Assembly: GCF_900465055.1 (NCBI RefSeq)
Contig: NZ_LS483250.1
Span: 1,178,001 to 1,242,000, forward strand
Reading direction: 5' to 3'
DNA: 64,000 nt
Source of the DNA: Moritella yayanosii
Lineage (GTDB): Bacteria > Pseudomonadota > Gammaproteobacteria > Enterobacterales > Moritellaceae
Under the pieces are notes generated by a model, which worked only from the letters and a program-made list of their open reading frames with translations, had not been told where the DNA came from and did no database searches. The translations under genes and the position numbers were made by a program. Positions 20,038 through 46,443 of this stretch are shown here, piece by piece (positions within the stretch are counted from its first letter, which is position 1; each line of letters starts with the position of its first letter).

Positions 20038-20148
20038 ATGTCTTTGAATCCTGGTTTTGTTAATATATTACAAACGTGCGTATTTTAAGCGTGCGTATTC
20101 TACACCTGCATATTACAAGCGCCGTAGTATAGCTTATATACTCAAACG

Positions 20149-20160: not shown

Positions 20161-20260
20161 GAATTAAAAGACGATCGAGATCGGATAATCTGGCTATCCG
20201 TCCTAATAAAAATACAGTTAAACACAGACAAAGAGCTAAAAACGAAGACAATAGGTATTA

Positions 20261-21466: not shown

Positions 21467-21473
21467 ATTTATA

Positions 21474-22506: not shown

Positions 22507-22509
22507 AAA

Positions 22510-25159: not shown

Positions 25160-25207
25160 TATTTTTAGTTGTTTATTAAAGATATTTGAATAATAACTCT
25201 AATTGCA

Positions 25208-25226
25208 AATGAAAACAATTATCATT
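25208..25226. promoter_or_regulatory. Fur-box-like operator between TonB2 operon and receptor operon
   Basis: The core 25210-25224 (TGAAAACAATTATCA) matches 12 of 14 defined positions of the 7-1-7 Fur motif TGATAAT-N-ATTATCA. It lies in the 168-bp divergent spacer, about 100 nt before the receptor start and 50 nt before the DUF3450 start, so iron-loaded Fur could repress both directions. Confidence 0.7.
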
Positions 25227-25327
25227 TAGATTAAATCTGTGTTATTTTCCCCACCCTTACTTATATCTGAGTATTAAAACCACATTTTTAAGCATGAAAA
25301 CTTACAAAAAGTCATCAAGGTAGCAGA

Positions 25328-27832: not shown

Positions 27833-27851
27833 GTAATTCGTACGCATGTTC

Positions 27852-27876
27852 AGGCGTGGGGACAACTCTCACGCCT
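27852..27876 (+). terminator. Weak hairpin after the receptor gene
   Basis: A 7-bp inverted repeat (27852-27858, 27870-27876) with an 11-nt loop follows the receptor stop codon, then a pyrimidine-rich run without a solid T tract. It is probably an attenuator that lowers downstream expression or protects the receptor mRNA, since the ABC gene starts 43 nt later. Confidence 0.4.
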
Positions 27877-27918
27877 TCTCTACATTTTAATTTATCTCTA
27901 ACTAACGATATTTAAACA

Positions 27919-29643
27919 ATGCAAAAACTCACTTTATTTTGGCAATTAATCAAACCTTTTTGGTTTGCTAAAGAACGTAATTCAGCATTACTTCTACTTA
28001 CGATAGTAATCATATTAAGCTTATCTTCGGTTTGGTTTAGTGTGCAAATAAACCAATGGAATGGTGATTTTTTTAATGCTTTACAACAACTCGATGGCCC
28101 TGTTCTCTATGAATTATTGCAATTCTTTGCAGGTCTAATTGCAGCCTTTATTCTGGTCATGGTGTACACAGATTATTTAAAGAAAAAGCTCATTATTAAC
28201 TTCCGTAGCTGGATGACTACGTATTTATGTGAGAAATGGTTATCCAAATACAGCGATCATTATAGACTAAGGTTGCAAAAATCCGAGCCCGATAATCCTG
28301 ACCAGCGTATTGCCGAAGACGTTGACATATTTATTCAAATCTCCTTAGATTTACTGTTATCTTTTTTACGTTCGGTGGTAACTCTGGGATCCTTTCTCAC
28401 CATTCTCTGGCAACTATCAGGTACGCTTTCTTTCACACTATTCGGTCGTGAACTCAATATTCCCGGTTATATGGTTTGGGCCTGTGTTGGTTACACTCTC
28501 ATTGGTACAGTGATCACACACCTGATTGGTAAGCCACTACAAGCACTTAATTTTAATCAACAAAAACGTGAAGCTGATTTTCGTCGTGCATTGATCTCAC
28601 GCCGAGAGCACAGCGCAGCAATCGCAGGGCAAGGAGGAGAACAACAAGAACAACAGAGTCTTAAAGTATACTTCTCGGCGGTGATTACGAACTGGTATCA
28701 ATTGATGCACTGTGAACGTAATTTAGGCTTCTTTACCGTTGGCTACGCACAAGTGTCCATGTTGGCACCAATTTTCTTCGCATTACCGAAGTTTCTTTCT
28801 GGAGCACTAAAACTAGGCGGATTAATGCAAATAAAGATGGCCTTTATGCAAGTGTCCAGTGCGCTTAGCTGGATTATCTATGCTTATCAGGACATCGCTA
28901 AATGGGGTGCGACTGTCGAGCGTTTAGCCGCATTTATAAATGCACTGGATGAACTTGAGGAGCCGGAACCTACACCGACACCAAACAGTAAAACGATTGC
29001 ATTAAAGAGTAATATTAAACTGTATCTCACCGATGGTAGTCCCTTGTTAACTGCGCAATCAATGACACTAAAGCTGGGCGAATTAACCATGATACAAGGT
29101 CGTTCTGGCATAGGTAAATCTACACTATTCAAAGCCTTGGCAGGTTACTGGCCCCACTTCACTGGTCAAATCCAACGTATTGAATCTATATATTGGATCC
29201 CCCATAGTTTATATTTGCCCGATGTCGATCTTGCTAGACAACTCTGCTACCCGAAAAACAGTACTGATTTCAGTGATACTGAACTGCAGGACACATTGCA
29301 TAAAATAGGATTACCACACCTATGCGAACAACTATATAGCCAAGTTAATTGGAAACAACAGCTATCCGCAGGTGAACAACAACGCCTTATGTTCGCACGT
29401 CTGTTACTCAATCGACCTAAATTAATTTTTATTGATGAAACCACGAGTTCACTTGATATTGATGCAGCCAGTAACTTAATCACATTATTAAAAGCAGAAC
29501 TACCGCAGAGTGCCATTGCATTCATTTCACATCAAGTCGCGCTAACCCAATATGCCGACCAGGTGATCTATATTGAGGACGACAAGATCAATGATAAAAC
29601 CGGTCATGATCTGAATTTAGTTAACACAATTAATATCGCGTAG
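27919..29643 (+). CDS. SbmA/YddA-like ABC transporter (membrane and ATPase fused)
   Basis: This 574-residue protein has an N-terminal membrane domain with about six helices (1-330), of the kind found in SbmA/BacA and YddA (WFSVQINQWNGDFFNALQ, then FRSWMTTYLCEKWL). A fused ATPase follows: Walker A GRSGIGKST (394-402), signature LSAGEQ (482-487) and Walker B LIFIDE (502-507). In Fus-type systems the FusD homologue takes up products of the protease. Direction of transport cannot be read from sequence. It lies between receptor and protease, cotranscribed with both (gaps 86 and 46 nt). Confidence 0.87.
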   Translation: MQKLTLFWQLIKPFWFAKERNSALLLLTIVIILSLSSVWFSVQINQWNGDFFNALQQLDGPVLYELLQFFAGLIAAFILVMVYTDYLKKKLIINFRSWMTTYLCEKWLSKYSDHYRLRLQKSEPDNPDQRIAEDVDIFIQISLDLLLSFLRSVVTLGSFLTILWQLSGTLSFTLFGRELNIPGYMVWACVGYTLIGTVITHLIGKPLQALNFNQQKREADFRRALISRREHSAAIAGQGGEQQEQQSLKVYFSAVITNWYQLMHCERNLGFFTVGYAQVSMLAPIFFALPKFLSGALKLGGLMQIKMAFMQVSSALSWIIYAYQDIAKWGATVERLAAFINALDELEEPEPTPTPNSKTIALKSNIKLYLTDGSPLLTAQSMTLKLGELTMIQGRSGIGKSTLFKALAGYWPHFTGQIQRIESIYWIPHSLYLPDVDLARQLCYPKNSTDFSDTELQDTLHKIGLPHLCEQLYSQVNWKQQLSAGEQQRLMFARLLLNRPKLIFIDETTSSLDIDAASNLITLLKAELPQSAIAFISHQVALTQYADQVIYIEDDKINDKTGHDLNLVNTINIA

Positions 29644-29689
29644 TTTATCAAAAAATCGAATCATAAAATTAAATTTCATGGAGTTATAA

Positions 29690-32623
29690 ATGTTATTTAG
29701 AGCTATACCAATCACAACACTTGCAGTAATAATCAGCCTACTCAGTGCCTGTGGTAGTTACCAAAACAACGACCTAAACACCCATAAGAAAGAAACAGAA
29801 AAAGTAGTAACAACTCAAACTTACCAATCTCAAGATCAGTTACCAATGCGTCCCGATTTGATTACCTATCAATTAGATAATGGACTCGATATTCTATTGT
29901 TACCAAGAAGCAAGTCAGGTGTCGAGCTTAGGTTATTGGTAAACTCAGGTTCATTACATGAAACAGATCAACAACTGGGACTCGCTCATTTTGTTGAACA
30001 TATGGCATTTAAAGGGACACGTAATTTTCCTGACAAACAGAGCTTTTTGGCACTAGAATCTCAAGGCTTAATGCTGGGCAGCCATATTAATGCCGCGACC
30101 AGTTTTAATACCACCGTTTATCGCCTGTCATTACCGGATAACAACAATACTGAATTAGCCCTAAATGTCTTATCAGACTGGGCAAGTGAAATTAGTTTTG
30201 ATAACGACGCATTTAATGCAGAACGCGAAGTTATTGTCGAAGAATGGCGGTTACACCAAGGCAGCGCTTACCGAATTAACAACCAGTTAGAAACTTTGCG
30301 CTACCAGGGTAGCCGTTTTGCTCACCGTAATACTATCGGTGACATTAACATAATCCGTCATGCGCCAGTCAGCCAGGCTAAAGCTTATTATAAACGTTGG
30401 TACCAGCCCCAACGCATGACACTTGTTGTAACCGGGAGCTTTGATCAAACCGATATAAAAAAACAAATTAATGATTATTTTGCAAATAAACCCGCGGGTA
30501 ACACACCTGCCGAACCTAGCAGTTGGCATCAATTTAAGCATAATTCACAACTTGAAAGTAAGTTAATTTTCGACCCGGAACGCGCGGGTAGAATGCTACA
30601 ACTGACCTTACAAAATGACCTACCATCAGCACTTAATACCACGAATGGCCAGTGGCGAGATCTCATTGAGTCAACCTGGATTGCAGTGCTTAATCAGCGT
30701 CTTGATATTCTCACTGACCACGATAAAATTAAATTTGCTCGAATGAATAGTAAAAGTAGTTTATTGAATGCTAACCGAGTTCAAGCATTACTCATCGCGA
30801 AACCTAAAGGTGATGATTACGCCGACACCTTTGCGATTTTAACGCGAGAACTGCAACGTCTAGCAACAGAACCGGTTACACAAGCCGAACTCGATAACGT
30901 GGCTGATATATACATAGCAAAACTATCCCGCCAAGCCGCCAATGAACAAGCATATGAAAATAGTTACCTTGCTGATCGTCTTGTAAATTCAGTATCTAAT
31001 CATATGCCGATGCTCAACAAGCAACAAGAACTGGCGATGGCAATCCAGTGGTTAGAAGCGCTAACACCCGAGCATTTACAAGCATCTGTCATTGAAACAT
31101 TAACGAATAGTGCACCCAAAATCGCTATTATCGGGCCTGATATCGACAAAGGCAAAATAACGGCATCTGAATTAACCCATATCTGGCAACAAGCTCGCCA
31201 ATCGGTACCTGGACCTTTTACTTTAGAAGCCAAGACACAAGATCTGCTCATTACAGCCCCTGATGCCATAAAAACAACCCAAGCACTCAACACGAAAACC
31301 ATTTTGTTGAACCAAACTGGAAAAAATAAAGCATTAACTGAACAATTAACCTTAGAAAACAACATGACGGTTGTCATTCATTCAGACTCGAATTTGCAAG
31401 GTGATGTACAATTCGATCTTAAAATAAAAGGCGGTAATTCGTTAGCAAGTAACAAACAACTGGGCTCAGTTAATTGGGCATTAAACCTAGCTGAACGCTG
31501 TGGTTACGGTGGTTATAGTGCACGTCAACTCGCGAAGTTTTCTCGTAAGGAAGACCTCTTAGTTAACGCATACAGCCAGCAGCTATATCATGGATTTCGC
31601 GGTAAGGCACCTGCCGATAATATGAATAAGTTACTTAGTTTAATCTACTTAAAACTAAGCAGTCCAAACAGCTGCACTGATAAATTGGCTAACATGCAAG
31701 AAAGCTATTATTTAGGTCAAACCAAGTTACCGGCAGAACGTAAATTCTATAATGCACTGACCACAGCCAGCTTTAATCAAAGTCAGCGTTTAGTGTCTTC
31801 AGCATCCGGTCCTTGGAACAAATTTACAAGTCAGCAACTGCACACATTATATCAACAACTATTTTCTCATCCCGAACAGATGCAACTGACTATTTCTGGA
31901 CCCGTTGATATTGAGCGACTAAAACCATTATTATCTCAATGGCTAGGTAACATAGTTACGATACCAGAGACGACAGATCACGCCATAAATATAAGTGAAA
32001 AACAAGAACAACAAGGCTGGCTAGACCACAACATTAAGCCGCTTAATCAAGCTATGCAGCAAACGTTTGCGATTGGCAGCAGTCCAAAAGCGATGGTGCA
32101 AATACATTACAGTGCTGACACACAATGGACATTACAACGTCAACTCGGATTACAGTTGATTGATGAAATGACTAACTTAAGATTGCGTAATAAAATTCGC
32201 GGTGAGGCATCCGGTGTTTATGTTATCAACATGTCTCAGTTATTAGCCAAATACCCTAGTGCCTATTATTTTGCACGTCTAAACTTCACTAGCGCACCCG
32301 AACGGGCAGGAGAATTAGCTCAATTAGCAAATAAAGAAATACAAAAGATCGCACGTAAGGGTTTCTCTTTTGCCGAGCTTAAGCAAGCAAAAAAAACCTG
32401 GCTACTGGCTCAACATCAGCGTGAGAAATATAGCAGTTACTGGCTACAAGCATTAAGTCAACGAACCATCGAAGACGGGATCACCAATCTCAATGAACTA
32501 ACTCAATTGAATACGATTGTATCCGAAATGAGTATCGAAACTATTAATCAAATAGCAAATGAACTTATGGGGCATGCACAAAAAACGTTTATTTTAATGC
32601 CTAAACCTCTTCCTATGGTGTAA
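29690..32623 (+). CDS. PqqL/FusC-like M16 zinc protease, lipoprotein
   Basis: A 977-residue protease with a lipoprotein signal (LLSAC, lipidated Cys21). Its two M16 halves are joined as in PqqL. The active N-terminal half has the inverted zinc motif HFVEH (100-104) and downstream glutamates in NAEREVIVEEW (176-186). The C-terminal half (about 560-970) lacks the zinc motif, as expected. Lipidation places it in the periplasm on a membrane. FusC, the closest functional model, cleaves imported plant ferredoxin to free its iron. Here the substrate is unknown. Confidence 0.9.
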   Translation: MLFRAIPITTLAVIISLLSACGSYQNNDLNTHKKETEKVVTTQTYQSQDQLPMRPDLITYQLDNGLDILLLPRSKSGVELRLLVNSGSLHETDQQLGLAHFVEHMAFKGTRNFPDKQSFLALESQGLMLGSHINAATSFNTTVYRLSLPDNNNTELALNVLSDWASEISFDNDAFNAEREVIVEEWRLHQGSAYRINNQLETLRYQGSRFAHRNTIGDINIIRHAPVSQAKAYYKRWYQPQRMTLVVTGSFDQTDIKKQINDYFANKPAGNTPAEPSSWHQFKHNSQLESKLIFDPERAGRMLQLTLQNDLPSALNTTNGQWRDLIESTWIAVLNQRLDILTDHDKIKFARMNSKSSLLNANRVQALLIAKPKGDDYADTFAILTRELQRLATEPVTQAELDNVADIYIAKLSRQAANEQAYENSYLADRLVNSVSNHMPMLNKQQELAMAIQWLEALTPEHLQASVIETLTNSAPKIAIIGPDIDKGKITASELTHIWQQARQSVPGPFTLEAKTQDLLITAPDAIKTTQALNTKTILLNQTGKNKALTEQLTLENNMTVVIHSDSNLQGDVQFDLKIKGGNSLASNKQLGSVNWALNLAERCGYGGYSARQLAKFSRKEDLLVNAYSQQLYHGFRGKAPADNMNKLLSLIYLKLSSPNSCTDKLANMQESYYLGQTKLPAERKFYNALTTASFNQSQRLVSSASGPWNKFTSQQLHTLYQQLFSHPEQMQLTISGPVDIERLKPLLSQWLGNIVTIPETTDHAINISEKQEQQGWLDHNIKPLNQAMQQTFAIGSSPKAMVQIHYSADTQWTLQRQLGLQLIDEMTNLRLRNKIRGEASGVYVINMSQLLAKYPSAYYFARLNFTSAPERAGELAQLANKEIQKIARKGFSFAELKQAKKTWLLAQHQREKYSSYWLQALSQRTIEDGITNLNELTQLNTIVSEMSIETINQIANELMGHAQKTFILMPKPLPMV

Positions 32624-32673
32624 GAAGGATCATTGTTACTACACTTACTATATTGAAATGAAATCGAGAATTA

Positions 32674-33153
32674 ATGATGAGACTCCATATTTCAACATTA
32701 GTAGTAATATTACTTATAACAGGGATCGAAACAGGCTGCGTAGGTAACCCTTATGGTGATACCTACGCTGTCAGCGATACTCGGCAAATACAGCATGTTT
32801 CTTACGGTGTAATCATTCGCGCAGCACCAGTCAACATTGAGGGCGATAAAGGCAGTAGTACCGTTGGCACCATTGCAGGTGGCGCGGTGGGTGGTATATT
32901 AGGGTCTAAAATCGGTGGTGGTTCTGGCTCAGATATTGCGGCAATAGGCGGGGCTATTTTGGGAGGAGTTGCAGGTAATAAAGCAGCTCAAGGGCTCACG
33001 AAACGTCACGGCGTTAATTTAACCATCAAACTGGATTCCGGTAAAACGATTGCTGTGGTACAAGAAATAAACCCAAATATGTTATTTAGAACAGGTCAGC
33101 GGGTACAAATAAACCAGCAAGGTGGCACAGCGCGGGTTGTTCCGCTTAATTAA
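32674..33153 (+). CDS. Glycine-zipper outer-membrane lipoprotein (SlyB/Pcp-like)
   Basis: The 159-residue protein has a lipobox ending TGC (Cys21), then a glycine-zipper segment (about 65-105, VGTIAGGAVGGILGSKIGGG and GGAILGGVAGNKAA) and a C-terminal beta domain with RTGQRVQINQ. This is the SlyB/Pcp 17-kDa antigen layout. Such proteins stabilise outer-membrane barrels under stress. It starts 50 nt after the protease gene and is probably the last gene of the operon, so it may guard the envelope during receptor expression. Confidence 0.82.
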   Translation: MMRLHISTLVVILLITGIETGCVGNPYGDTYAVSDTRQIQHVSYGVIIRAAPVNIEGDKGSSTVGTIAGGAVGGILGSKIGGGSGSDIAAIGGAILGGVAGNKAAQGLTKRHGVNLTIKLDSGKTIAVVQEINPNMLFRTGQRVQINQQGGTARVVPLN

Positions 33154-33174
33154 TCACGCAGTACCACGCTCGAT

Positions 33175-33471
33175 TTATTTAAGACTCGCGTAATAAGCAG
33201 CTACATTAACAATATCAGCATCCGATAATGCCATGACCATGCCTTTCATGGTTGGATCTGGGCGCTTACCAGATTTAAAATCTTTCAGCTGTTTCACCAG
33301 ATACATAGCTTTTTGTCCGGCTAGGTTCGGGTACATAGGGATCGATGAGATCCCCGCGACACCATGACAGGCCATGCACATACCGGTTTTAGCCTTACCA
33401 GCCTCGATATCAGCAGCTATCGCTGGTATTGTAACCAGTCCGGCTAAGATTAATAATGCTATTTTTTTCAT
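33175..33471 (-). CDS. Small periplasmic cytochrome c (class I, c553-like)
   Basis: This 98-residue protein has a signal peptide (about 1-20, LVTIPAIAA) and one haem motif CMACH (about 32-36). The methionine ligand is likely in MKGMVMAL (about 75-82), and the C-terminal helix reads [12 protein letters not shown] strong AAGGAGGT site precedes the ATG. It is the last gene of the leftward Idr-like operon, 54 nt after the molybdoenzyme gene. It is the natural electron shuttle between the respiratory chain and the Rieske subunit. Confidence 0.9.
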
Positions 33472-33525
33472 GTCTTACCTCCTTAATTCAGGCCTTAAAA
33501 GAGGGCTGTTGCCAGCCCGTTTTAT

Positions 33526-36222
33526 TTAAATGATATTTCGCGGTGCAAAAGAGAAAGCGCGGAATTCATGTTTATATTTAGACTCACCAATTTTCCTGAT
33601 CTTCGATACACCCATTTTAAAATTGTAGTTACCACTGATCTGGTCAACAACTCGCGTAGTGAGTGAATTTGACGGCTGGCGCATATCGATCATGTTGGCA
33701 TACAACGCCCCCTGCTTGGTTGCAGACGTCACAATAGCCACCGCAGTCACCGCGGCTTTATCAAGCTGGATATGACCGTTCTTCAGCAAGCTGCTAAATT
33801 GGAAATCATCGCCTTTTACACCTAGGATCGTGTCTTTAAAATTAGCCACTCGATCAGAATACATCATCACTTGGTCGCCCGATTCAATGCCACGTTTCTT
33901 CGCATCTTCAGGATGGATCTCAACCCAGTTTTCCGGCCAACGTTGTTGCACATATGCACGACGTTCAACATCATCAAAACCAGACTGCCAAATTTCGTTA
34001 ACACGCCCATTAGAGAACCACAGCTCATCTTCTCTTGGTTGCAACCAAGCATAAAAATCACTGAACAGATCCCAAGGGTGTTTCTGCAGATTGATCTTAC
34101 CTGTTTGGCTATTAAAAGCCGTTAACTGTTTCTTCAATACGTTTTGACCTTGTGGCCCATTCGTTAAACCTTTTTCAGCTAATGTTTCAGCGGTCATTTC
34201 AGTATCATGTAAACGTTTAGTACCCACTAACTTTTTAGTATCGTAATTATAGAACACCGGTCCTTGAATACCTTCAGTGCCATATTCTCTGAGTTTTTGA
34301 TGTAAGGTTTTACCTTCGATATGAGCAGCCACTTTTATCATATGGAAATCTTTACGACTACCCCGGCTAAAGCGGGATGCTTCTTCCGCTACATCGTTAG
34401 ACGTTTCCCAATCAAAACCGTCAAAGCCCATGCGTTTCGCCAATTGACCAACAATCCACCAATCAGGTTGTGCTTGCCCTGGCGCATCATTGAATTTTTG
34501 ATAAAGGCGCAGACGTCGCTCGCCATTGGCACGCATAAAGTCTACCTCACCCCAAGTGGCGGCAGGGAAAACGATATCTGCAAACTTAGCACCAATTGGA
34601 TCACGTAAATAAATATCTTGGTTGATCACCACCATACCGCCAGAGTCCGCACGTTTTTTCAAAGTATCGATGATCTCTTGCTTATCATAGCTATAGACTT
34701 GATGTGGGTTCGAGGTGACTAATTCCCAGAATTTCTTCTGTAGGCCTTGGCTACCGCACATAGACTGGATCCACGTGGTACCAATAACATGCGCAAAACG
34801 GGTATGACCTGAATATAAATAACGGTCAGTATCCAATGCTCTACGACGACGCCCAGGGAGTTTTTCAGGTGATTTATTGCGGGGTAATTTACCGCCTGAT
34901 TGACCACCACGTTGGTGACCACCAAAACGACCCACAACGCGCCCTTCACGACCACCAGCACCGACAACTGTTGCTAACGTTGCAATAGCATTGGTATTGG
35001 CCGTATTGTTTGACCAGTAAAAGCCTTTCTCAATACCAATCGATGTTTTTGGACGCACGCCATTCACCGGTTTCGCCATCATTTCAGCAGCTTTATAGAT
35101 CTTAGCCACATCAATACCGGCCATTTTCGCTGCGTATTTCGGATCAAATTCGTCTTGTGCTTGGTTCCATTTTTTATAATCTTCAAAACCGTCAGTTTGG
35201 AATTTGCCCCAAGTGGTACGCCACTGCCAAGGCGTATTACGGGTACCCTGACCAAAACCAGAGTTAGATTCCCATTTGTTATTTACCCATTTATCAATCC
35301 ATTCATCATCTTGCCAACCATTGTCCATAATCACGCGTAATATCGCACCAATAACGAGGTTGTCAGAACCTGGGTTAAGATCGATATGTAAACCGCCATG
35401 TTTTTTCATGTAAACAATACCGGCGGTTTCTCTTGGATTTAAGATCACGGTTTTCATACCGCGCTGAATAGCCGGCATCATGAACTGGGTAAACAAGATG
35501 GTCTTAGTTTCATACGGGTCGGTACCGCACACCATTAACGTATCGGCGGCGCCCCAATCGTCATAACTTGGGCCAAAATTATCAAAACCCGCATCACGGA
35601 AACCCGGTGTAGAGGTTACGTCCGACGGCGTATCATGGAAACTAAAGTTAGCCGTATTAATATGACGTAATGCATATTTGGTGATCGCATAGGTATTCTC
35701 AATATATTGATAAGAGTAGGTTTTCACGCAATAGGCATTGGCACCATGTTTATCAATAACATAACTACCCACCTCAGCAGCAATATCCAAGGCAAAATCC
35801 CAAGGCACAGGTTGTAAACTACCACCGATCCGCACTAACGGTTGGGTTAAACGGTCACGCGTGCCCGTTGCTGGGTTATACACCTTCTGCGCTAATAAGC
35901 CACCGCGCATGGAAGAGTCACCCATCTTATTAACCACAGTGCTGTCTTTGTCTGGCACGATGATAATATGATGCGGCTTGCCAAGGTGCATGACGACATT
36001 ATGTTGTGATGGCGCAACCCAGGCTTGCAGTGGCGCACTGGGAAAATCGATACCAAAGGCATTTTCGCTGGCTTTTTGGCCGCCACTGGCTTTTTCAATT
36101 GGCCAACGATACACTTTGTAACCACAAGCCACGATACAATAATCGCATGCTGTGGTGATCACTTCTGCATACGTTGGTGGCAACGGCGCATGGTCTTCTG
36201 GAATATAAAAATTAGTAGTCAT
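33526..36222 (-). CDS. idrA: AioA-family molybdopterin oxidoreductase, probable iodate reductase IdrA
   Basis: This 898-residue protein belongs to the DMSO-reductase superfamily. It has an N-terminal Cys26-x2-Cys29-x3-Cys33 cluster site, and Ser (103/104 in GDSSMRGG) stands at the position of the fourth Cys, as in the [3Fe-4S] site of arsenite oxidase. The segment GRFGGHQ (431-437) matches the AioA substrate loop, but the next residue is Arg instead of Glu. There is no signal peptide, so export would be by hitch-hiking with the Tat-bearing Rieske partner. The two cytochrome peroxidase genes beside it are the hallmark of Idr (iodate) and are not found with Aio. Iodate is therefore the likeliest acceptor substrate, with arsenite the main alternative. 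Confidence 0.8.
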   Translation of the reverse strand: MTTNFYIPEDHAPLPPTYAEVITTACDYCIVACGYKVYRWPIEKASGGQKASENAFGIDFPSAPLQAWVAPSQHNVVMHLGKPHHIIIVPDKDSTVVNKMGDSSMRGGLLAQKVYNPATGTRDRLTQPLVRIGGSLQPVPWDFALDIAAEVGSYVIDKHGANAYCVKTYSYQYIENTYAITKYALRHINTANFSFHDTPSDVTSTPGFRDAGFDNFGPSYDDWGAADTLMVCGTDPYETKTILFTQFMMPAIQRGMKTVILNPRETAGIVYMKKHGGLHIDLNPGSDNLVIGAILRVIMDNGWQDDEWIDKWVNNKWESNSGFGQGTRNTPWQWRTTWGKFQTDGFEDYKKWNQAQDEFDPKYAAKMAGIDVAKIYKAAEMMAKPVNGVRPKTSIGIEKGFYWSNNTANTNAIATLATVVGAGGREGRVVGRFGGHQRGGQSGGKLPRNKSPEKLPGRRRRALDTDRYLYSGHTRFAHVIGTTWIQSMCGSQGLQKKFWELVTSNPHQVYSYDKQEIIDTLKKRADSGGMVVINQDIYLRDPIGAKFADIVFPAATWGEVDFMRANGERRLRLYQKFNDAPGQAQPDWWIVGQLAKRMGFDGFDWETSNDVAEEASRFSRGSRKDFHMIKVAAHIEGKTLHQKLREYGTEGIQGPVFYNYDTKKLVGTKRLHDTEMTAETLAEKGLTNGPQGQNVLKKQLTAFNSQTGKINLQKHPWDLFSDFYAWLQPREDELWFSNGRVNEIWQSGFDDVERRAYVQQRWPENWVEIHPEDAKKRGIESGDQVMMYSDRVANFKDTILGVKGDDFQFSSLLKNGHIQLDKAAVTAVAIVTSATKQGALYANMIDMRQPSNSLTTRVVDQISGNYNFKMGVSKIRKIGESKYKHEFRAFSFAPRNII

Positions 36223-36224
36223 AA

Positions 36225-36845
36225 TTAAGCCCCCTGCCTGGCAATAATATTATCTGTGCGACCGAATAACAGGCCCATAATGCCCACGGCATAAATGTCA
36301 TCACCATCTTGTTCAAGCAATACTTGCGGTAGACTTTCATACGCTTGACCCGACACAATAATACCGTGACGGCGTAGATCAAATGTCGATAAATGGAATG
36401 GACATTGCCCTAATACGCGATGCTCACCAACCACTTTGTATTGACCATCAAGTGGCCCACCTTGATGAGTACACATTAATGAGAAGGCGACAATATCTTG
36501 CTTAACACCAAGGCCCCCCCCTGCTTTAACGCCCATTCTGGTCACGATTGCGCGTGAGTTAGGACCATTATCCGGATAATTAAAGTTAATTGGCTCATTG
36601 AGTTTCATTTCGCTAATTTTGGCAATTAGCTGTCGAGGATAACCCACGATTCGCGCTCGCACACTTTGTGCCTGAGCCGTACCTGGGAACATGGACAGTG
36701 ACACCACACTCGCGGTACTTGCCAGCGCACCGCTATACATTAAAAAGTCACGACGTGAGACCATGCATTTTTGATGCTCTTCTGCACTTTCTGATTTCAT
36801 TTTCTCTTTACGCTCTGCATTGCGTTTTTTTCTGTCAAAGATCAT
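36225..36845 (-). CDS. idrB: Tat-exported Rieske 2Fe-2S subunit, probable IdrB
   Basis: The 206-residue protein has a twin-arginine signal (SRRDFL, 30-35, followed by a hydrophobic stretch to about AQA 59). The Rieske domain has Cys125-x-His127 (CTHQGG) and Cys148-x2-His151 (CPFH). It would pass electrons to the molybdenum subunit in the periplasm. The Arg-Arg pair is preceded by an unusually long 29-residue polar leader. An internal ATG giving MVSRRDFL is possible but would lose the overlap with the upstream gene (4 nt). It ends 2 nt before the large subunit. Confidence 0.85.
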   Translation of the reverse strand: MIFDRKKRNAERKEKMKSESAEEHQKCMVSRRDFLMYSGALASTASVVSLSMFPGTAQAQSVRARIVGYPRQLIAKISEMKLNEPINFNYPDNGPNSRAIVTRMGVKAGGGLGVKQDIVAFSLMCTHQGGPLDGQYKVVGEHRVLGQCPFHLSTFDLRRHGIIVSGQAYESLPQVLLEQDGDDIYAVGIMGLLFGRTDNIIARQGA

Positions 36846-38092
36846 TTTGTCGCCTCCGCAAGTTGTTGTTCGGTAAATAGACGCTGATAAGGAGGTAGCT
36901 CTGGATAATCCATGGTGATACGCTCACCAGAAAAAGCACCTAAGAATGCCAACAAGTCTGATTTTTCATTCGCAGTTAAACCCAGTGGTTTGATTAGCTC
37001 ACTTTTAGTCGCTGGATAACCGGTCGAGCGGCCATCAGCAGCGATCCCTCCACGGTCATAAAAATCAACCACATCGGCCAAAGTTGCTAACGTACCATTA
37101 TGCATATAAGGGGCGGTATATTGGGTATAACGTAAGCTCGGGGTACGGAATTTACCCTTCATGTCTTTGCGTTTGCCGCGGAAATAAACCCCAGGATCGG
37201 CTTTGGTTGTTCGGTACATTTTCTCGTTAGAGCCTTTCGCATACAGTTCATAGCGGAAAGTGATCTGCGCAAGCGCTTCTGAATCCCAACGTAAGTTAGT
37301 CGGTACACCAACGTTGTAGTATTTCTGATCACTGGCTAATGCACTATTATGGCAAGCAATACATTGTGCTTTACCTTCAAATAAGGTTTTACCCTTGAGT
37401 TGCTGTGCCGATAATGCCGTTTCATCGCCCATCAAGTAGTTATCTAACGGCGTATCAGTTTGTATTAGCGTACGTTCAAATGCCGCCATGGCTTTCCAAA
37501 CATTACTGACCTTCGGATAGTTATCACCAAATACTTGATTAAAACTCGTCACATATTCAGGAATAAGCGCTAAACGAGCTTCCATAATGTCATCTTCACC
37601 ATTGCCAGCAACCGCACCTTTCGCCGCGCTCTTCGCCTGACTTTCTAGGGATTTACTTGAGCCGGCCCAGAATAATTTGCCATAATAAGCAGCGTTAATG
37701 ATGGTTTGACTGTTACGCCAATGCACAGTACCCGGATAACCAATAGAAAGATCGGTCGGTACATCCCAACCTAAATCTGGCAGGTGACAAGCGACGCAAG
37801 GTGTTGAACCATCACCACCAATGCGGCCATCAAAGAACAGCTTTTTACCTAACGCAATTTTTTCATCTGTCATGGGGTTATCAGCTGGAACCGGTACGGC
37901 ACCAAGTGGCGCTAATGCGGGTAATATCATGCCATTTAGCGTGATAGGTTTTAATGATGCGGCGACCATCTCTGCCGTGATCACATTTTTATCTGCCTTA
38001 ATGTTCTTATCGTCTTGCTGCGCGCATGCTGGAACTGTGGTAATTGTCAGCAATAACGCAGCCATAGTAGACAAGTTGATTTTAATGCTCAT
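36842..38092 (-). CDS. idrP: Di-haem cytochrome c peroxidase-like protein, probable IdrP
   Basis: This 416-residue protein has an export signal ending near TTVPACAQ, possibly lipidated at Cys23, and two haem motifs, CVACH (99-103) and CIACH (244-248). It has the MauG/CcpA fold pattern (LGKKLFFDGRIGGDGSTPC, then FRTPSLRYTQYTAPYMHNGTLATLADV). The frame extends 48 nt upstream, but an AAGGAGG site six nt before the ATG at 38092 fixes the start. In Idr systems two such peroxidases are thought to remove H2O2 or reactive iodine intermediates in the periplasm. Which is P1 or P2 I cannot tell. Confidence 0.82.
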   Translation of the reverse strand: MSIKINLSTMAALLLTITTVPACAQQDDKNIKADKNVITAEMVAASLKPITLNGMILPALAPLGAVPVPADNPMTDEKIALGKKLFFDGRIGGDGSTPCVACHLPDLGWDVPTDLSIGYPGTVHWRNSQTIINAAYYGKLFWAGSSKSLESQAKSAAKGAVAGNGEDDIMEARLALIPEYVTSFNQVFGDNYPKVSNVWKAMAAFERTLIQTDTPLDNYLMGDETALSAQQLKGKTLFEGKAQCIACHNSALASDQKYYNVGVPTNLRWDSEALAQITFRYELYAKGSNEKMYRTTKADPGVYFRGKRKDMKGKFRTPSLRYTQYTAPYMHNGTLATLADVVDFYDRGGIAADGRSTGYPATKSELIKPLGLTANEKSDLLAFLGAFSGERITMDYPELPPYQRLFTEQQLAEATK

Positions 38093-38102
38093 CTCGTCCT
38101 CC

Positions 38103-39194
38103 TTAGTTTTTAGCATTTTGCCAATCGGCAATGGGTGCATAGTTATAATCAGACTGAGTCCAAACGTGCTTTTCAGTCGTTAATGGTTCACTTGACAGCG
38201 ACTTCAAAAATGCAACCAAGGCTTTTTGTTCTTGCCACGTCAAATTCAACGGTTTTAAACGGCTGTCTTTGTTGCTGTCCTCACCACCACCGGTATTATA
38301 AAACGCCACCACATCTTGCAGGGTTTCCATCATGCCGTTGTGCATATAAGGTGCTGTTTGCTGTAATTCACGCAATGTTGGGGTCATAAATTTACCCATA
38401 TCAGAACCATCGGCTTTATGGGTTTGCACATGCGCACCCACATCACGTTTCAAGTTCATGTAATTTTCATTACCCATGAACATGTTAAAGGCGATAAAGG
38501 TGTGATGACGTAGAGGGTCACGGAAAATATCGAGGTTTTCTTCAACACCGGTATTGTGAGGTTTGCCATCACTTAATAAAGGTCCATTGTGGCATCGCAC
38601 ACAACCCGCTTTACCGGTAAATACAGCTTGACCTTTAAGGGCGAGTTCTGACATCTCACCTTGATCAAATGGCGTGGTATTGGAGGTTAATGTTTTGAGA
38701 AACTCAGGAATCGCTTTACGAATAGAACCATTAGAAGGCTCACCATAACCCGCGGCTTTAAACATGCTCACATACACAGGATCTTGCTTAACACGCTCTT
38801 GCATCAAACGCATATCCATGTTCATTAACCAATCTTCAGTTAACATTTCACGCGTTACATCGTTTAAATTAGTACCGATACGACCGTCATGAAACCATAT
38901 TTGTTTATAAGCGGTATTAATCAATGTCGGAACATTACGAAAACCTTTACTGCCGGGATAAGCAGGCGCTAACGCATCAGGGTGAGAGAAACCACTGTCA
39001 GGTTGATGGCATGATGCGCAAGATAGCGCCCCGTCACCGGACAAACGTGGATCATAAAATAGACGTTTACCTAGTTCTGCTTTTACGGCATTCACTTTCA
39101 ATGTTGGTAGCGCACCAAACTCGCTGGTATGAGTCGCGGCCCAGCTAGAAAATGATAACGAAATAGCAGCAGTAAGGATCAGCGTTTTTTTCAT
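38103..39194 (-). CDS. idrP: Di-haem cytochrome c peroxidase-like protein, first gene of Idr-like operon
   Basis: The 363-residue protein has a signal peptide (about 1-20, SFSSWAA) and two haem motifs, CASCH (59-63) and CVRCH (198-202). The C-terminal half carries FMTPTLRELQQTAPYMHNGMMETLQDVVAFYN. The start at 39194 is set by an AAGGAG site; an ATG 45 nt upstream lacks one. It is similar in design to the next gene but shorter, so the pair arose by an old duplication. It opens the leftward operon. A ~290-bp gap upstream should hold the promoter. Confidence 0.82.
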   Translation of the reverse strand: MKKTLILTAAISLSFSSWAATHTSEFGALPTLKVNAVKAELGKRLFYDPRLSGDGALSCASCHQPDSGFSHPDALAPAYPGSKGFRNVPTLINTAYKQIWFHDGRIGTNLNDVTREMLTEDWLMNMDMRLMQERVKQDPVYVSMFKAAGYGEPSNGSIRKAIPEFLKTLTSNTTPFDQGEMSELALKGQAVFTGKAGCVRCHNGPLLSDGKPHNTGVEENLDIFRDPLRHHTFIAFNMFMGNENYMNLKRDVGAHVQTHKADGSDMGKFMTPTLRELQQTAPYMHNGMMETLQDVVAFYNTGGGEDSNKDSRLKPLNLTWQEQKALVAFLKSLSSEPLTTEKHVWTQSDYNYAPIADWQNAKN

Positions 39195-39530
39195 TATAAA
39201 GCTCCTTTGCTTCCTATCAATTGGAATAACATTAATCACAATGGGGTATTAGCATAAACTAGGCCAAAACAACGAAATTAAATAAAATCATATATAACAG
39301 CAGGTTAAACTAAAACGTGAGTGAGTTAACATCGTTGGATCTGTAACGTTTTATTAAATAATAAAATGTATAGTTGAATGAATCGTTAAATTATCCGGTA
39401 TGTAATAAAACAGACAGAACAAGGATTTACCTCCCAAGCCACGCAATCACTGGTGATTCAACAAATAATCTATTTCGGCATGTTTTATGCTATACACCTG
39501 ATATAGATAAATGCAGAGAGAGTGAATCGA
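39195..39530. promoter_or_regulatory. Divergent spacer between Idr-like operon and HEAT gene
   Basis: About 335 bp with no convincing ORF. It must hold the promoters for both directions. I looked for a sigma-54 -24/-12 pair (GG-N10-GC) and for FNR-type TTGAT-N4-ATCAA sites and found none that I would defend. Confidence 0.35.
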
Positions 39531-41873
39531 ATGAATTCCAACATGACACAGACAAATGCAGCTATTAATGAATTAAGTAAATTACTGGAAACTGGTGACG
39601 AAGCGCAGCGTTGCTATTCAGCCCGGGCGATAAGTGCAGCTAAAATAACCACGGTTACCCCAGCGCTTAACGCGTGTTTATATCATCAAGACCCTGATGT
39701 GGTAATTGATGCAGCAACTGCTCTTGCCACAGTTTGTGCTGGTGATTTAGATAGCTTACAAGATGTGGCGATTAACCATCCGGATAGCGACGCACGATTA
39801 GCAGCATTATCGGCTATCACAAAACAATATAACAACGAACCACAACGGGTTGTCGACACGCTGACCCGTTTTGCAACAGGTCGCACCGAGAAAGATGATT
39901 TGGGACTCAGCGGTGACTGGGATGATTGGTGGGATCTGCAATTAACCGCGGTACAATTACTCAGTTCAATTCAAACTACACAGAACAGCGATTTGTTCGG
40001 TAGTTTGTTTATTGAGTTATTAACCCAAGATCCAGAACCCGAGCTTGAATTGGCGCTTTATCGTGCGTTAGTCGATTTCCAACCTCAGATTTTATTACAG
40101 CACTGGACCACAGCACGAAAAATGAAGCAACGCCGACTTGCCCGTGCCTTTGCCAGCAGCGCAACCACCGCAGCACTCGATCATATGGCAGCTTGTTTAA
40201 AGTGCGACGATAGTGAGATAAAAAAAATAGCGCTCAAAGCCCTTGCTACCCATGGCCAGGGTCAAAATGTACAAGCCTATTTAGCTGACATCATTGCGTG
40301 CTTGAGCGACAGCGAACCCAGTGTCCAAGAGGCTGCAACATCCACACTCAATCAACTAAATCAATTAGCCACGTTACAACCAACGAGGTTAATGCCATTC
40401 ATCAAACAAGCACCTGATTCAAGTTTACCGAGTTTAATCAATTTACTTTCCCGCCAAAATGATAAATTAACCACAGCAGACATTGACTGGCTGCAACCAT
40501 TACTCACACACAGTGATAACAACATCAAAATTGCCATCATCAACTGCTTTTCAACACTGACTGAAGCACAAATAATAGATTATTCGGATGTCTATTTAAC
40601 GGCATTAAATAGCTGTTTAACGGCAATACAAGATCGTTATTTACCTCTGTATCAGCGCGCACAATTACTCCGACAGTTAAGCCAATTTAAACAACATGCA
40701 GACCTGTCATTCCCGGTATTGAAAGCACTGCTGGAGAACGATGAAACCGATGTAGCCCTACGCCAATCGGCATTAGAAGCCATCACCAGCGAAACCAATG
40801 ACGACAGCCTAAAATGGCTAAAACAACTGTTACTTGGCCTTGCCTCACAAGAGGATACCATCGCCATTACCCAAGTTGATGACGTTGATGTTAGTGCTGA
40901 GAACAGTGATAACAAACCTGAAAAAACAGCAGGTCGCATTAAGCTAGAAGCACTATTAGCTAAACATGGCGATAAATTTCCCGAAGACCAAGGATTTGAT
41001 AATGCCCCAGTATCAACACTGGCGGCAATTCAGCAATCTAACATTGAGGCAACCCTCATATCGGCAGATGACAAACCCGATGATCAGACCTTGCTGGAAA
41101 TGATTGACGGCCTCGATGATGAATTTACCGACTACAGTAACATTGTGCGCGACCATCTCGATACCGGTGAAAATCTGGCATTAAATCGTAAAAAAATTGC
41201 CCGTTTACCACAAACCGACAGTAAACTATTAGCGATCAGAGCGCTCGGCCACAGTAAAACTGAATCTGCTGCAGGCTTGCTGATTGAAGCAATGCTCGGC
41301 GCGACGCCGAAAGAACAGCATGAGTTATTTCAAGCGTTAACCAATATCGCCAAGCATCACGACTATAAAGTATTGAGAAATGGGATTGGTGCCGCAGGTT
41401 ATACCCTGCATTATGGTGATCCATTATGTAAGCAATCTGCTGCGCAGTTTTTAACTCACATGCCGCTAAACAAAGCCCTGCCAATATTACTGGTTGGTGC
41501 CGATGACGAAAATGAACACGTTCGAGTCTGCTGCTTAACAGCACTCAAGGACCAATTAGAAAGCAAACGCTTATTACAGCGCCACCAGCAGCAAACTGGT
41601 GACATTATCGCCAAGAAAATACACGATCCAGCTGGCGGAGTACGTAAGTTAGCCCTGCAAATTTTAGCTAAAATCGACTTATCAAAATACCTCCCCGTAT
41701 TAATTGAATTAGCGGTTAGCGATCAAGAAAGTAATGTAATCGCAGCGCCCTTGTTCTTTGCCAAACAACAACAAGCACTGGCAATTTTAACCGACAATAT
41801 TGCTACATATAGCGACCATCGACAACCATTATCGATTCAACTTGCAGGCCATTTACTTGCATTTACTGCATAA
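39531..41873 (+). CDS. HEAT-repeat protein
   Basis: A ~780-residue soluble protein without signal or membrane segments, built of helical repeats throughout. Units such as DPDVVIDAATALATV, DSEIKKIALKALATHG and NEHVRVCCLTALKDQL are typical HEAT/PBS-lyase-like repeats. An acidic, less ordered insert lies around 440-560. The frame begins at a GTG (39522); the ATG at 39531 after GAGAGAG is preferred. HEAT scaffolds mediate protein-protein contacts. Its position beside a molybdoenzyme operon could mean a maturation or assembly role, but nothing in the sequence proves this. Confidence 0.75.
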   Translation: MNSNMTQTNAAINELSKLLETGDEAQRCYSARAISAAKITTVTPALNACLYHQDPDVVIDAATALATVCAGDLDSLQDVAINHPDSDARLAALSAITKQYNNEPQRVVDTLTRFATGRTEKDDLGLSGDWDDWWDLQLTAVQLLSSIQTTQNSDLFGSLFIELLTQDPEPELELALYRALVDFQPQILLQHWTTARKMKQRRLARAFASSATTAALDHMAACLKCDDSEIKKIALKALATHGQGQNVQAYLADIIACLSDSEPSVQEAATSTLNQLNQLATLQPTRLMPFIKQAPDSSLPSLINLLSRQNDKLTTADIDWLQPLLTHSDNNIKIAIINCFSTLTEAQIIDYSDVYLTALNSCLTAIQDRYLPLYQRAQLLRQLSQFKQHADLSFPVLKALLENDETDVALRQSALEAITSETNDDSLKWLKQLLLGLASQEDTIAITQVDDVDVSAENSDNKPEKTAGRIKLEALLAKHGDKFPEDQGFDNAPVSTLAAIQQSNIEATLISADDKPDDQTLLEMIDGLDDEFTDYSNIVRDHLDTGENLALNRKKIARLPQTDSKLLAIRALGHSKTESAAGLLIEAMLGATPKEQHELFQALTNIAKHHDYKVLRNGIGAAGYTLHYGDPLCKQSAAQFLTHMPLNKALPILLVGADDENEHVRVCCLTALKDQLESKRLLQRHQQQTGDIIAKKIHDPAGGVRKLALQILAKIDLSKYLPVLIELAVSDQESNVIAAPLFFAKQQQALAILTDNIATYSDHRQPLSIQLAGHLLAFTA

Positions 41874-41918
41874 CGTGATATAACGCAATTCATTAATTTA
41901 TTTAGTGTAAGTATTATC

Positions 41919-41948
41919 AATGGCACCGGGATTAGGTGCCATTTTTTA
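41919..41948 (+). terminator. Terminator after the HEAT gene
   Basis: A 9-bp stem (41919-41927 with 41935-41943) with a 7-nt loop is followed by TTTTTA. It covers the first ATG of the next open frame, which argues that the kinase starts further downstream. Confidence 0.8.
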
Positions 41949-42000
41949 TCACACTCATTTAGTCAAGAAACTGGCTGTAATTGCTTTAAATGGATCTTTT

Positions 42001-44565
42001 ATGCGCTCTGAATACTCGGGTAATAATATGGACATAACCACTAACCACAAAAAATTTTCTAAAGACTTAGCCTATTGGTTATTACCTTGTTGGTTAGTTA
42101 TTTTTATTATCATGATGATCCACTACTCGCTAAACATTGCAAAGGACAAGCAATACTCATTACACAATGAACAAGTGATTGTTGAGTTAATCGAAAAACT
42201 ACTGAATGATAGCCTAAATAGCATGACATCCGATGCCCTCATGCTGTCTTATATTGCGAAACAGATATCAATAGATGACAGTAATACGGCACCGTTAACC
42301 AATTATTTTATTGAATTAAGTAAAAATGATGATAATTACGAGCAAATCCGTTTTATAGACATACAAGGTTACGAACGTATTCGTGTTAATAATATCTCAA
42401 ATAAAATTTACACGGTTGATAGCCAAGATCTACAAAATAAATCAAAACGTTATTACTTTCAAAAGACCATGCAACTGAGTCAAGGCAATGTCTATATCTC
42501 GCCGATGGATCTGAATATCGAAGCAGGTCAAATCCAACAGCCACTTAATCCCACTATCCGGATTGGCGTGCCGGTTTTTAATATCCAAGATGAAAAAATA
42601 GGCGCGATAATTTTAAATTACAAAGGCCGTAAACTGATTAATCGCTTATTACATATCTCGCCCAATTTTATTGAGCATTTATACATACTCAATGCGGAAG
42701 GCGTCGCGATTATTCAACCGGTTACATCAGCGCTATCTACGCTTACATCGAAACATAAGTCACCCGATACACCACCGCCATTTCAATTCAATACCAGCAA
42801 GCAACTGAGTGACGAGTTACTCGAGCTTATGAGCCAGAAACATCAAGGACAGATATTACTTCAAGACAGCTACATCACCTTCACGCAAACGTTTTCTAAT
42901 CGCAGTGGCCGTTGGACGATTGCCTCAGTATTTCCCAAGCAACGCTTTAATTTAGCCCGTATCGCCTTTGCCGATAATTACATGCTGCTCTATATTACCT
43001 TAACGATGGTCCTCAGTTCTTTGATTTTTCTGTTCCGCTATCACTACCAACAAACCAACAACCTACGTGAGCAACAGGCATATGATAAACAATTCAGATT
43101 AACGTTAGAGAACATCCAGTTTATTGCGGTATCCATTAACAGTGATGGCATCATTACTTTTTGTAATGACTTTTTCTTAAACTTGGTTGGTTATCAAAAA
43201 CATCAAGTCATTGGCAAATGCTGGGTTGATACTTTCATTCCGCAAAAGCTACAACAGCAAGCAGCAGAGGCGTTGAAGCAAGCACTAGTACAAGAGTTAA
43301 ATCAAACCAAAGTCGAAACTGTAGTACAAACAAATTGCGGTGAAGTGGTCTTGGTTTCATGGAGCAGTACCTATTCTAAAGCCCACGGTAATAATCTCGC
43401 CACAGCCACCTTTATTGGTGAAGATGTCACAGAACATAAAATGGAACAGGACCAACTGCAGCGCTTAAGTCACGCCGTAGAGCAAAGCCATAACTCGGTC
43501 ATGATCACCGAGATCACAGGTGAAATCATCTATGTAAACCCGGTATTTTGCGAACTCACCGGTTATAAAAAACATGAAGTACTGGGTATCACGCCTAAGT
43601 TTCTACAATCCGGCGAAATGCCAGAAGTCGGTTATGACAGCCTTCGACAAACTATTCAACGTGGTGACGAATGGCGTGGTGAATTCCATAATAAGAAAAA
43701 GAACGGCGACTTATTTTGGGAACGAGCGCGTATATCGCCAGTCAAAGACAGTGCTGGCAATGCCCTGTATTTTGTTGCGGTAAAACAAGATATTACCAAA
43801 GAGAAACAGCTTGCTCATGAAATGCAGGAACAAGAAGCATTACATGCAAAACAAGACAAACTGGCGGCAGTAGGTAAAGTCGTCAACATGATCGCCCATG
43901 ATTTAAGAAACCCGCTGAGTTCGATCAAAATGGTACTGCAGATTTATGCGCGTAAAGAACAAGATGAGTTGTTTGATATCTCACTTGAGCAAGTGCGTTA
44001 CATGGAAGCTATTTTGGAAGACTTACTGTCCTACTCTAGACCTGAACAATTTAAACCCGAATGGCTTGATTTAAATAAACTGGTTGAATTTGCCGTTAAT
44101 AGTCAACGCCGTCTGGCGAAAGAAAAAGACGTGGCGATCGAATTTAGCTACCCGCACAACTTGCCGACTGTGTATGCCGACCCGATCAAATTACGCCAAG
44201 CACTGCAGAATTTGCTCGTTAATGCGATTCAGGCGGCAGAAACCAGCGAGCAAGCTTGCCCTTTAGTCACGGTCACGACTAACATCTTACTCACTGATTC
44301 CAACTCGATGATCTTAATTGATATTAGCAATAATGGAACATCCATCGACCCTTGTATGGTCAGTAAAGTATTTGAACCTTTTTATACTACCAAGGCAAAA
44401 GGCACAGGGTTAGGCTTGGCTATCGTGCAAAAGATCATTGAAAGCCACAAAGGCAGTGTACGTTTAAAACCCATCAATCCGATTGGTACTTTAGCGCAGA
44501 TACAATTACCGTTATCTAACCACATAAGTGAGCCAATTTCACCGATTAAGGACGTAATTAACTAA
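42001..44565 (+). CDS. Membrane sensor histidine kinase with Cache-like sensor and two PAS domains
   Basis: About 854 residues. The order is a membrane helix (about 22-45), a periplasmic dCache-like sensor (about 50-320) with IRFIDIQGYERIRVN, a second helix (about 326-345), two PAS domains, HisKA with MIAHDLRNPLSS, and an HATPase with NLLVNAIQAAE and GTGLGLAIVQKI. The open frame reaches back to 41920, but that ATG is inside a terminator; the ATG at 42001 has GGA six nt upstream. It is followed one nt later by its sigma-54 response regulator. The extracellular ligand is unknown; PAS may add redox sensing. Confidence 0.9.
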   Translation: MRSEYSGNNMDITTNHKKFSKDLAYWLLPCWLVIFIIMMIHYSLNIAKDKQYSLHNEQVIVELIEKLLNDSLNSMTSDALMLSYIAKQISIDDSNTAPLTNYFIELSKNDDNYEQIRFIDIQGYERIRVNNISNKIYTVDSQDLQNKSKRYYFQKTMQLSQGNVYISPMDLNIEAGQIQQPLNPTIRIGVPVFNIQDEKIGAIILNYKGRKLINRLLHISPNFIEHLYILNAEGVAIIQPVTSALSTLTSKHKSPDTPPPFQFNTSKQLSDELLELMSQKHQGQILLQDSYITFTQTFSNRSGRWTIASVFPKQRFNLARIAFADNYMLLYITLTMVLSSLIFLFRYHYQQTNNLREQQAYDKQFRLTLENIQFIAVSINSDGIITFCNDFFLNLVGYQKHQVIGKCWVDTFIPQKLQQQAAEALKQALVQELNQTKVETVVQTNCGEVVLVSWSSTYSKAHGNNLATATFIGEDVTEHKMEQDQLQRLSHAVEQSHNSVMITEITGEIIYVNPVFCELTGYKKHEVLGITPKFLQSGEMPEVGYDSLRQTIQRGDEWRGEFHNKKKNGDLFWERARISPVKDSAGNALYFVAVKQDITKEKQLAHEMQEQEALHAKQDKLAAVGKVVNMIAHDLRNPLSSIKMVLQIYARKEQDELFDISLEQVRYMEAILEDLLSYSRPEQFKPEWLDLNKLVEFAVNSQRRLAKEKDVAIEFSYPHNLPTVYADPIKLRQALQNLLVNAIQAAETSEQACPLVTVTTNILLTDSNSMILIDISNNGTSIDPCMVSKVFEPFYTTKAKGTGLGLAIVQKIIESHKGSVRLKPINPIGTLAQIQLPLSNHISEPISPIKDVIN

Positions 44566-44566
44566 T

Positions 44567-45925: not shown

Positions 45926-45959
45926 GCTTGTTTCGTAGACTACTACATCTAGCCAATAA

Positions 45960-45993
45960 AAAAGGATTAATCCCATTGGTGATTAATCCTTTT
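45960..45993. terminator. Bidirectional terminator between response regulator and cold-shock gene
   Basis: A perfect 13-bp stem (45960-45972 with 45981-45993) with an 8-nt loop. The stem itself ends in TTTT rightward and leftward, so it can end both convergent transcripts. Confidence 0.85.
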
Positions 45994-46006
45994 ACTAATC
46001 GTAAAC

Positions 46007-46210
46007 TTAAATTGCAGTTACATTAGTAGCGCAAGGCCCTTTTTGCCCGCTACCCACTTCAAACTCCACTTTCTGGCCATCTTCTAATGTTGCATAACCA
46101 GATGTTTGAATTTCGGAATGATGCACAAACAAATCATTACCGCCTTCGTCAGGGGTGATAAATCCAAAACCTTTGTCTGCATTAAACCACTTAACTGTAC
46201 CTCGACTCAT
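46007..46210 (-). CDS. CspA-family cold-shock protein
   Basis: A 67-residue single cold-shock domain with RNP1 KGFGFITP (about 13-20) and RNP2 LFVHHSEI (about 27-34). It binds single-stranded RNA and DNA and melts secondary structure. A long, AT-rich leader of more than 100 nt upstream without another gene fits a regulated 5' untranslated region. Which of the csp paralogues it corresponds to cannot be decided. Confidence 0.93.
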
Positions 46211-46443
46211 AACGCTTTTTTCCTCAACTGACTTTGTGTCTGAATTAAGCTTAGTTGAGGCGGACTTTTTGTCCAGTTTAGAATACGTCCTTGTGTGTTC
46301 CGATGTCGTAAAGTGTGTTAGATTTGTTATTCATAATATGCACAAATCGAGACGTCCTGCTTCACAAAGATTATGAATTAAGAATTAATAATCTTCAAAT
46401 TAATTGTAGATGCACAGGTTTACTCGGAAATAGGGGGATTGAA

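Follow-up and report, generated by a model that had tools for sequence, protein, structure and literature searches.

What does the compact leftward gene cluster of Moritella yayanosii encode: an iodate reductase, or an arsenite oxidase (Aio) to which peroxidase genes have been added? The cluster occupies positions 33175–39194 of the window, by which we mean the whole stretch of 64,000 nucleotides (nt) analysed here (NZ_LS483250.1, positions 1,178,001 to 1,242,000), from a genome held in one contig of 4.43 Mb. Iodate reduction is a source of iodide in the sea. An initial annotation, made from the sequence alone, had read the cluster as an iodate reductase (Idr)-like operon in an inverted gene order. 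Our analysis indicates that the locus probably encodes a periplasmic iodate reductase of the type-1 Idr lineage, with an operon that runs idrP2-idrP1-idrB-idrA-cytochrome c and with a regulator and a HEAT-repeat partner encoded on the opposite strand. The operon comprises the following genes.

33175–33471, minus strand: small c-type cytochrome with one haem, accessory (PF00034, 36.5 bits; Sec-like signal by eye)
33526–36222, minus strand: idrA, catalytic molybdenum subunit (TIGR02693, 409 bits, cut-off 359; no signal peptide seen by eye)
36225–36845, minus strand: idrB, Rieske [2Fe-2S] subunit (TIGR02694, 119 bits, cut-off 95.65; twin-arginine translocation (Tat) signal SRRDFL)
36842–38092, minus strand: idrP1, di-haem protein of the CCP/MauG family (PF03150, 138.5 bits; two CxxCH motifs)
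38103–39194, minus strand: idrP2, di-haem protein of the CCP/MauG family and first gene of the operon (PF03150, 124.4 bits; ATG at 39194; two CxxCH motifs)

Coordinates, motifs and family models bear out the five leftward genes of the initial annotation, together with their haem, Rieske and Cys-Ser motifs and the intergenic gaps, which are 10, −4, 2 and 54 nt in transcription order. The first gap follows from taking the second ATG of the idrP1 open reading frame (ORF), at 38092, as its start; an alternative start is possible at 38140. IdrA carries the cluster motif CDYCIVAC at residue 26 and a Ser 70 residues past the third Cys, giving a CX2CX3CX70S motif of the [3Fe-4S] type that matches the one published for IdrA of Azoarcus DN11. 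The Rieske motif of IdrB reads CTH-x20-CPFH (CxH-x20-CxxH); for DN11 IdrB, an x18 spacing is given in the accessible passage of PMC10149662.

The inverted order did not survive comparison. Among 80 related loci taken from named genome records, 70 have two peroxidase genes, the Rieske gene and idrA in succession on one strand; in the other 10 the contig breaks off inside the four genes or next to them. The order published for the reference strains is likewise idrP2, P1, B, A (PMC10989891). The Moritella operon therefore has the canonical Idr order, and the name idrABP1P2 does not list the genes as they are transcribed. On the published naming the first gene (38103–39194) is idrP2 and the second idrP1. 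Because order and strand recur so widely, the four-gene arrangement is no product of chance; it is common to type-1 and type-2 loci alike, and the operon is an ordinary, already recognised Idr operon. Moritella species have previously been named as idr carriers with some vertical inheritance (passages of PMC8692401). The small cytochrome is more variable: a one-haem ORF begins within 150 nt past idrA in five of the 80 loci (three Moritella, Vibrio sinaloensis and Alginatibacterium), and likewise in the type-2 loci L095 and L096. It is the likely electron donor to IdrAB.

The choice between Idr and Aio was addressed with a large-subunit tree of 46 chosen rows. Idr proteins form one clade (33 rows, support 100/99) and AioA proteins another (10 rows, 100/97), the position of the root being unsure because the outgroup branches are long. 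The Idr clade splits into type 1 (27 rows, 99/99), in which the window protein sits beside that of Moritella sp. PE36, its closest named relative (99%), and type 2 (6 rows, 100/100). Pseudomonas SCT and Azoarcus DN11 probably belong to type 2, since the Azonexus operon has a sigma-54 regulator, a cytochrome c and moaA as neighbours. The initial annotation had preferred Idr to Aio and had named a position within the arsenite oxidase clade as the result that would tell against it; the tree instead groups the large subunit with Idr and apart from AioA, and the locus has both peroxidase genes, so that its preference stands.

An arsenite oxidase with added peroxidase genes is thus very improbable, even though several observations lean that way. 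Both subunits score above the cut-offs of the NCBIfam arsenite_ox_L/S models, sequence comparison gives AioA chains as the best solved relatives of IdrA (E 6.7e-83), IdrA aligns with the arsenite pocket at its His, Arg and His, and a kinase and an NtrC-type regulator lie close by, as they do next to aioBA in NT-26 and M14. Besides the tree, the pocket and the neighbours speak against it. The remaining pocket residue, a Glu that we take to be A. faecalis Glu203, is Glu in 5/5 AioA sequences; the window has Ser, as do 81 of 82 type-1 rows (the other has Ala), and both type-2 rows have Asp. AioX-like and glp genes, both of which adjoin aioBA in NT-26 and M14, were not found among the window neighbours scanned with Pfam. 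The ArrA model NF041714 gives the large subunit 26.4 bits, far under its cut-off of 1600.

The aligned arsenite-pocket stretch also separates the two Idr types, with HDTPSDVTSTPGFRD in type 1 and HDKCSATNDATGLDD in type 2. This difference, on top of the well-supported split (99/99 and 100/100), would suit type-1 enzymes that reduce another oxyanion (bromate or chlorate, for instance) or that have a mixed substrate range, and we found no assayed member placeable in type 1. We nevertheless regard a changed substrate as quite unlikely, given that types 1 and 2 have the four-gene operon and its order in common and that many hosts are marine, where iodate occurs (passages of PMC11445184).

The two "peroxidases" depart from the classical pattern in a haem ligand and in the distal pocket. 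In alignments that leave out truncated ORFs, Tyr replaces the Met that serves as ligand of the six-coordinate (6c) haem in CcpA, in 75/75 rows for IdrP1 and 72/72 for IdrP2; in a smaller alignment it occupies this position in 44/44 Idr rows. Of the distal triad, IdrP1 keeps Gln (74/75), has Ala in place of Pro (75/75) and shows Ala (68), Ser (6) or Glu (1) at the Glu position, while IdrP2 has lost all three residues in every row. Four residues beyond the Glu position an acid is conserved (Glu in 74 rows and Asp in one for IdrP1, Asp in 72/72 for IdrP2), which could replace the distal Glu. L190, a further di-haem protein of the window genome, served as a control: it combines the Tyr with an unaltered Gln, Pro and Glu triad. 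The best solved relative of IdrP1 is 6e1c (BthA; E 9.9e-44), which also tops the IdrP2 profile. From the alignments, both proteins are predicted to carry MauG/BthA-type Tyr-His ligation of the 6c haem. Given the kept acid, and the insertion that BthA itself has at its distal-pocket region, the substitutions do not establish a loss of peroxide chemistry. The hypoiodous acid/peroxide step is disputed, being assigned either to a Cld-like enzyme or to an abiotic disproportionation, in which case the peroxidases would serve for detoxification (passages of PMC8692401), and the pattern of haem ligands and distal pockets makes it testable via named residues. Our search for literature joining iodate reductase and MauG found none in searchable papers; the putative MauG-type ligand and altered distal pockets in both Idr proteins appear to be new.

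Divergent from the operon lies a further gene that tracks type-1 idrA.

39522–41873, plus strand: HEAT-repeat protein of 783 amino acids (PF13646, 89 bits; no signal peptide seen by eye)

Only the four idr genes themselves are more frequent around idr than the HEAT family, which is present at 43 of 81 loci, upstream on the opposite strand in 14 and downstream of idrA in 29. A profile search (E 1e-8), with a profile built partly from these same proteins, detects it in 28/28 alphaproteobacterial loci, in 17/48 gammaproteobacterial loci including the window (16/27 among those with full flanks), in 1/6 unassigned loci, and in 0/2 SAR324 and 0/5 Aio plasmid loci. Whole-genome searches, which used single proteins as queries, gave a consistent association, for which Fisher values ignore relatedness. 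Within Moritella, idrA and the HEAT gene occur in the identical 6 of 11 genomes. Across 394 genomes of the order, IdrA matches (E 1e-100) occur in 11 and HEAT matches (E 1e-15) in seven, six of them Moritella and all seven among those 11. Four genomes have IdrA and no single-protein HEAT match. With the profile, a divergent HEAT gene next to idr was recovered in G032 and a weak one in G286, and none was found in G296; in the fourth, G047, the IdrA-like gene has no peroxidase genes found next to it. In the family of Ruegeria haliotis (Rhodobacteraceae, 295 genomes), 34 genomes have IdrA matches at E 1e-60: 14 of type 1 (at least 71% identity), 3 of type 2 (46–51%) and 17 that are AioA-like only (30–34%). 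The HEAT gene (E 1e-10) is present in 13, all of type 1, and in each case it immediately follows idrA in the same orientation; it was found in none of the 281 genomes without a type-1 idrA at this threshold. In the single type-1 genome lacking it (G760), the contig ends 136 bases past the idrA match, which reaches only residue 628.

The predicted structure of the HEAT protein is an all-helical alpha-solenoid (mean predicted local distance difference test score (pLDDT) 82) with generic fold matches. Because the protein is apparently signal-less and tightly linked to idrA, and because IdrA needs loading before Tat export, it may act in the maturation or hand-over of IdrA. In gammaproteobacteria it could also work with the kinase, but the alphaproteobacterial gene comes after idrA. 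The association of a HEAT-repeat gene with type-1 idrA is new here: no published link to idr was found in the searchable literature, a scope that does not take in the original SCT paper or any supplementary files. Papers on iodate and HEAT repeats concerned retina or eye disease only ("heat" in PMC8692401 refers to heat-killed controls), and none was found joining HEAT repeats with molybdoenzymes. In Rhodobacteraceae the gene can serve to tell type-1 Idr from type-2, and it is a candidate for a missing component when the marine Idr type is expressed in other hosts.

Control of the operon may lie with the genes beyond the HEAT gene and with a site ahead of idrP2.

39266–39251, minus strand: candidate sigma-54 (−24/−12) promoter TGGCCTAGTTTATGCT, 56 nt ahead of the idrP2 ATG
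41920–44565, plus strand: sensor histidine kinase with a PF21623 sensor domain and PAS domains (Pfam)
44567–45925, plus strand: NtrC-type response regulator, sigma-54 activator (PF00158, 230 bits; GSFTGA loop)

A GG-N10-GC element scoring at least 11 lies upstream of idrP2 in 31 of 46 non-alphaproteobacterial loci. Control spacings of N7, N8, N9, N11, N12 and N13 give 3, 5, 1, 4, 2 and 2 of the 46, and 100 single-base shuffles give a mean of 1.8 loci and a maximum of 5. The element is kept in all six aligned Moritella sequences and fits the nearby NtrC-type regulator, and we consider a sigma-54 promoter at this site probable. The sensor kinase adjoins HEAT and idr genes in Vibrionaceae and Marinomonas loci too. 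A two-component system near idr was already known, DN11 having a sigma-54 regulator and a sensor kinase nearby; in published work joining iodate, idrA and sigma-54 the accessible passage names the regulator gene only, and the predicted promoter is the new element.

Taken as a type-1 iodate reductase, the system would most likely work as follows. Low oxygen and iodate would lead the PAS kinase to phosphorylate the NtrC-type regulator, which would drive the operon from the promoter at 39266–39251. IdrA would mature in the cytoplasm, assisted by the HEAT protein, and would then be exported together with IdrB via Tat. Electrons from quinol would reach the Rieske centre of IdrB by way of the small cytochrome c and go on to the [3Fe-4S] cluster of IdrA and the molybdenum, where iodate would be reduced to hypoiodous acid. 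IdrP1 and IdrP2 would remove the reactive products, H2O2 and perhaps hypoiodous acid. A stronger version, in which the type-1 system is larger than idrABP1P2 because IdrA depends on a dedicated cytoplasmic HEAT protein for its maturation or hand-over ahead of Tat export, and in which IdrP1 and IdrP2 are not classical H2O2 peroxidases but MauG-type Tyr-His enzymes whose rebuilt distal pockets reduce hypoiodous acid, seems to us unlikely.

Several points weigh against reading the locus as a type-1 iodate reductase of this kind. We know of no iodate assay for any member placeable in type 1, and the one named complete type-2 operon compared, that of Azonexus, has an IdrA 48% identical to that of the window. 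The tree was built without the IdrA proteins of SCT, DN11, Denitromonas IR-12 and Roseovarius azorensis; without the first three as references, the identity of the Idr clade rests on the peroxidase-bearing operons. The HEAT gene is absent from 11 of the 27 gammaproteobacterial loci with full flanks and is thus no universal partner. The sigma-54 site occurs in 1 of 24 alphaproteobacterial loci, and a pooled scan of alphaproteobacterial and other loci over longer upstream stretches gave a mean score of 10.98, not clearly separated from that of controls inside idrA (10.51 to 11.16).

Physiology known from other strains bears on what the enzyme would be for. An idrA knockout of IR-12 is without growth on iodate (stated in a passage of PMC11445184), and idr genes are upregulated with iodate in DN11 (passage of PMC10149662). 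Dissimilatory iodate respiration is plausible in this Moritella. Iodate reduction could alternatively be an electron sink or a detoxification at low oxygen that supports no respiratory growth, which we think possible, if not probable. That Moritella species are facultative anaerobes counts against a mere sink. In three marine aerobic idr-bearing alphaproteobacteria, nearly complete reduction of iodate required static conditions, and anaerobic growth on it did not occur (passages of PMC11445184), as a sink would predict; Denitromonas IR-12 (passages of PMC8692401) and Azoarcus DN11 (passages of PMC10149662), on the other hand, grow with iodate.

The surroundings of the operon are largely shared within the genus. 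Window positions 32744–46279 are collinear in five other Moritella genomes, apart from small losses and one insert (in G006 collinearity was followed to 45522, the end of the compared stretch). In G001, G003, G005 and G010 the left edge of this block lies within about 330 nt of DNA ending at window position 20091, so the window carries an extra 12.6 kb in between, of which G006 shares at least 25246–32830. This segment (20092–32743) holds genes for a DUF3450 protein, two ExbB-like proteins, ExbD, TonB, a TPR protein, a TonB-receptor plug protein, an SbmA/BacA-type ABC transporter and an M16 peptidase, and looks like a TonB-dependent uptake module. In G010 idrA is broken near codon 50 by about 1.03 kb (L176, about 14143–15175) carrying a 318-residue transposase-like ORF, putatively IS1595-like; window 36072–36078 is matched on both sides of the insert, as a short target repeat would give, and the idr operon of this strain is probably inactive. 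Another locus, L183 of G047, has an IdrA-like protein (about 50%) and a Rieske subunit, with no peroxidase genes found in the 16-kb stretch compared, and is a possible link between Aio and Idr. Elsewhere in the window, the GyrA protein (47363–50233) is matched in one piece in the window genome and G003; in the other nine Moritella genomes it is interrupted from about residue 724 to 750–769, suggesting that the genus is variable in a short stretch close to the C-terminal part. A tRNA-Ser (anticodon tga; 16031–16121) is the only tRNA found in the window.

Among known systems, AioBA (NT-26, Sinorhizobium M14 and Thermus HB8) resembles the window locus in having a Rieske small subunit ahead of a molybdenum large subunit with a [3Fe-4S]-type Cys motif. 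It differs in its separate clade, in about 29% identity between the large subunits and in its pocket Glu; no peroxidase genes are annotated adjoining it, and the HEAT gene is missing from all five Aio plasmid loci. The bis-Fe(IV) di-haem enzymes MauG and BthA share the Tyr ligand of the 6c haem with IdrP1 and IdrP2, which differ from them in the replacement of Pro (75/75) and Glu (74/75) in IdrP1 and of Gln, Pro and Glu together (72/72) in IdrP2. From IdrABP1P2 of Pseudomonas SCT, Denitromonas IR-12, Azoarcus DN11 and Aromatoleum TC-10 the window system is set apart by its type-1 lineage (its IdrA is 48% identical to that of the type-2 operon of Azonexus), by the adjoining HEAT gene and by the lack of moaA among the window neighbours scanned. 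With these same strains it shares the four genes in the order idrP2-P1-B-A, a sigma-54 regulator and sensor kinase nearby (as in DN11), an optional cytochrome c, and a Tat signal on IdrB, none seen on IdrA and Sec-like signals on the P proteins, assigned by eye in the window and by SignalP in print (passages of PMC8692401).

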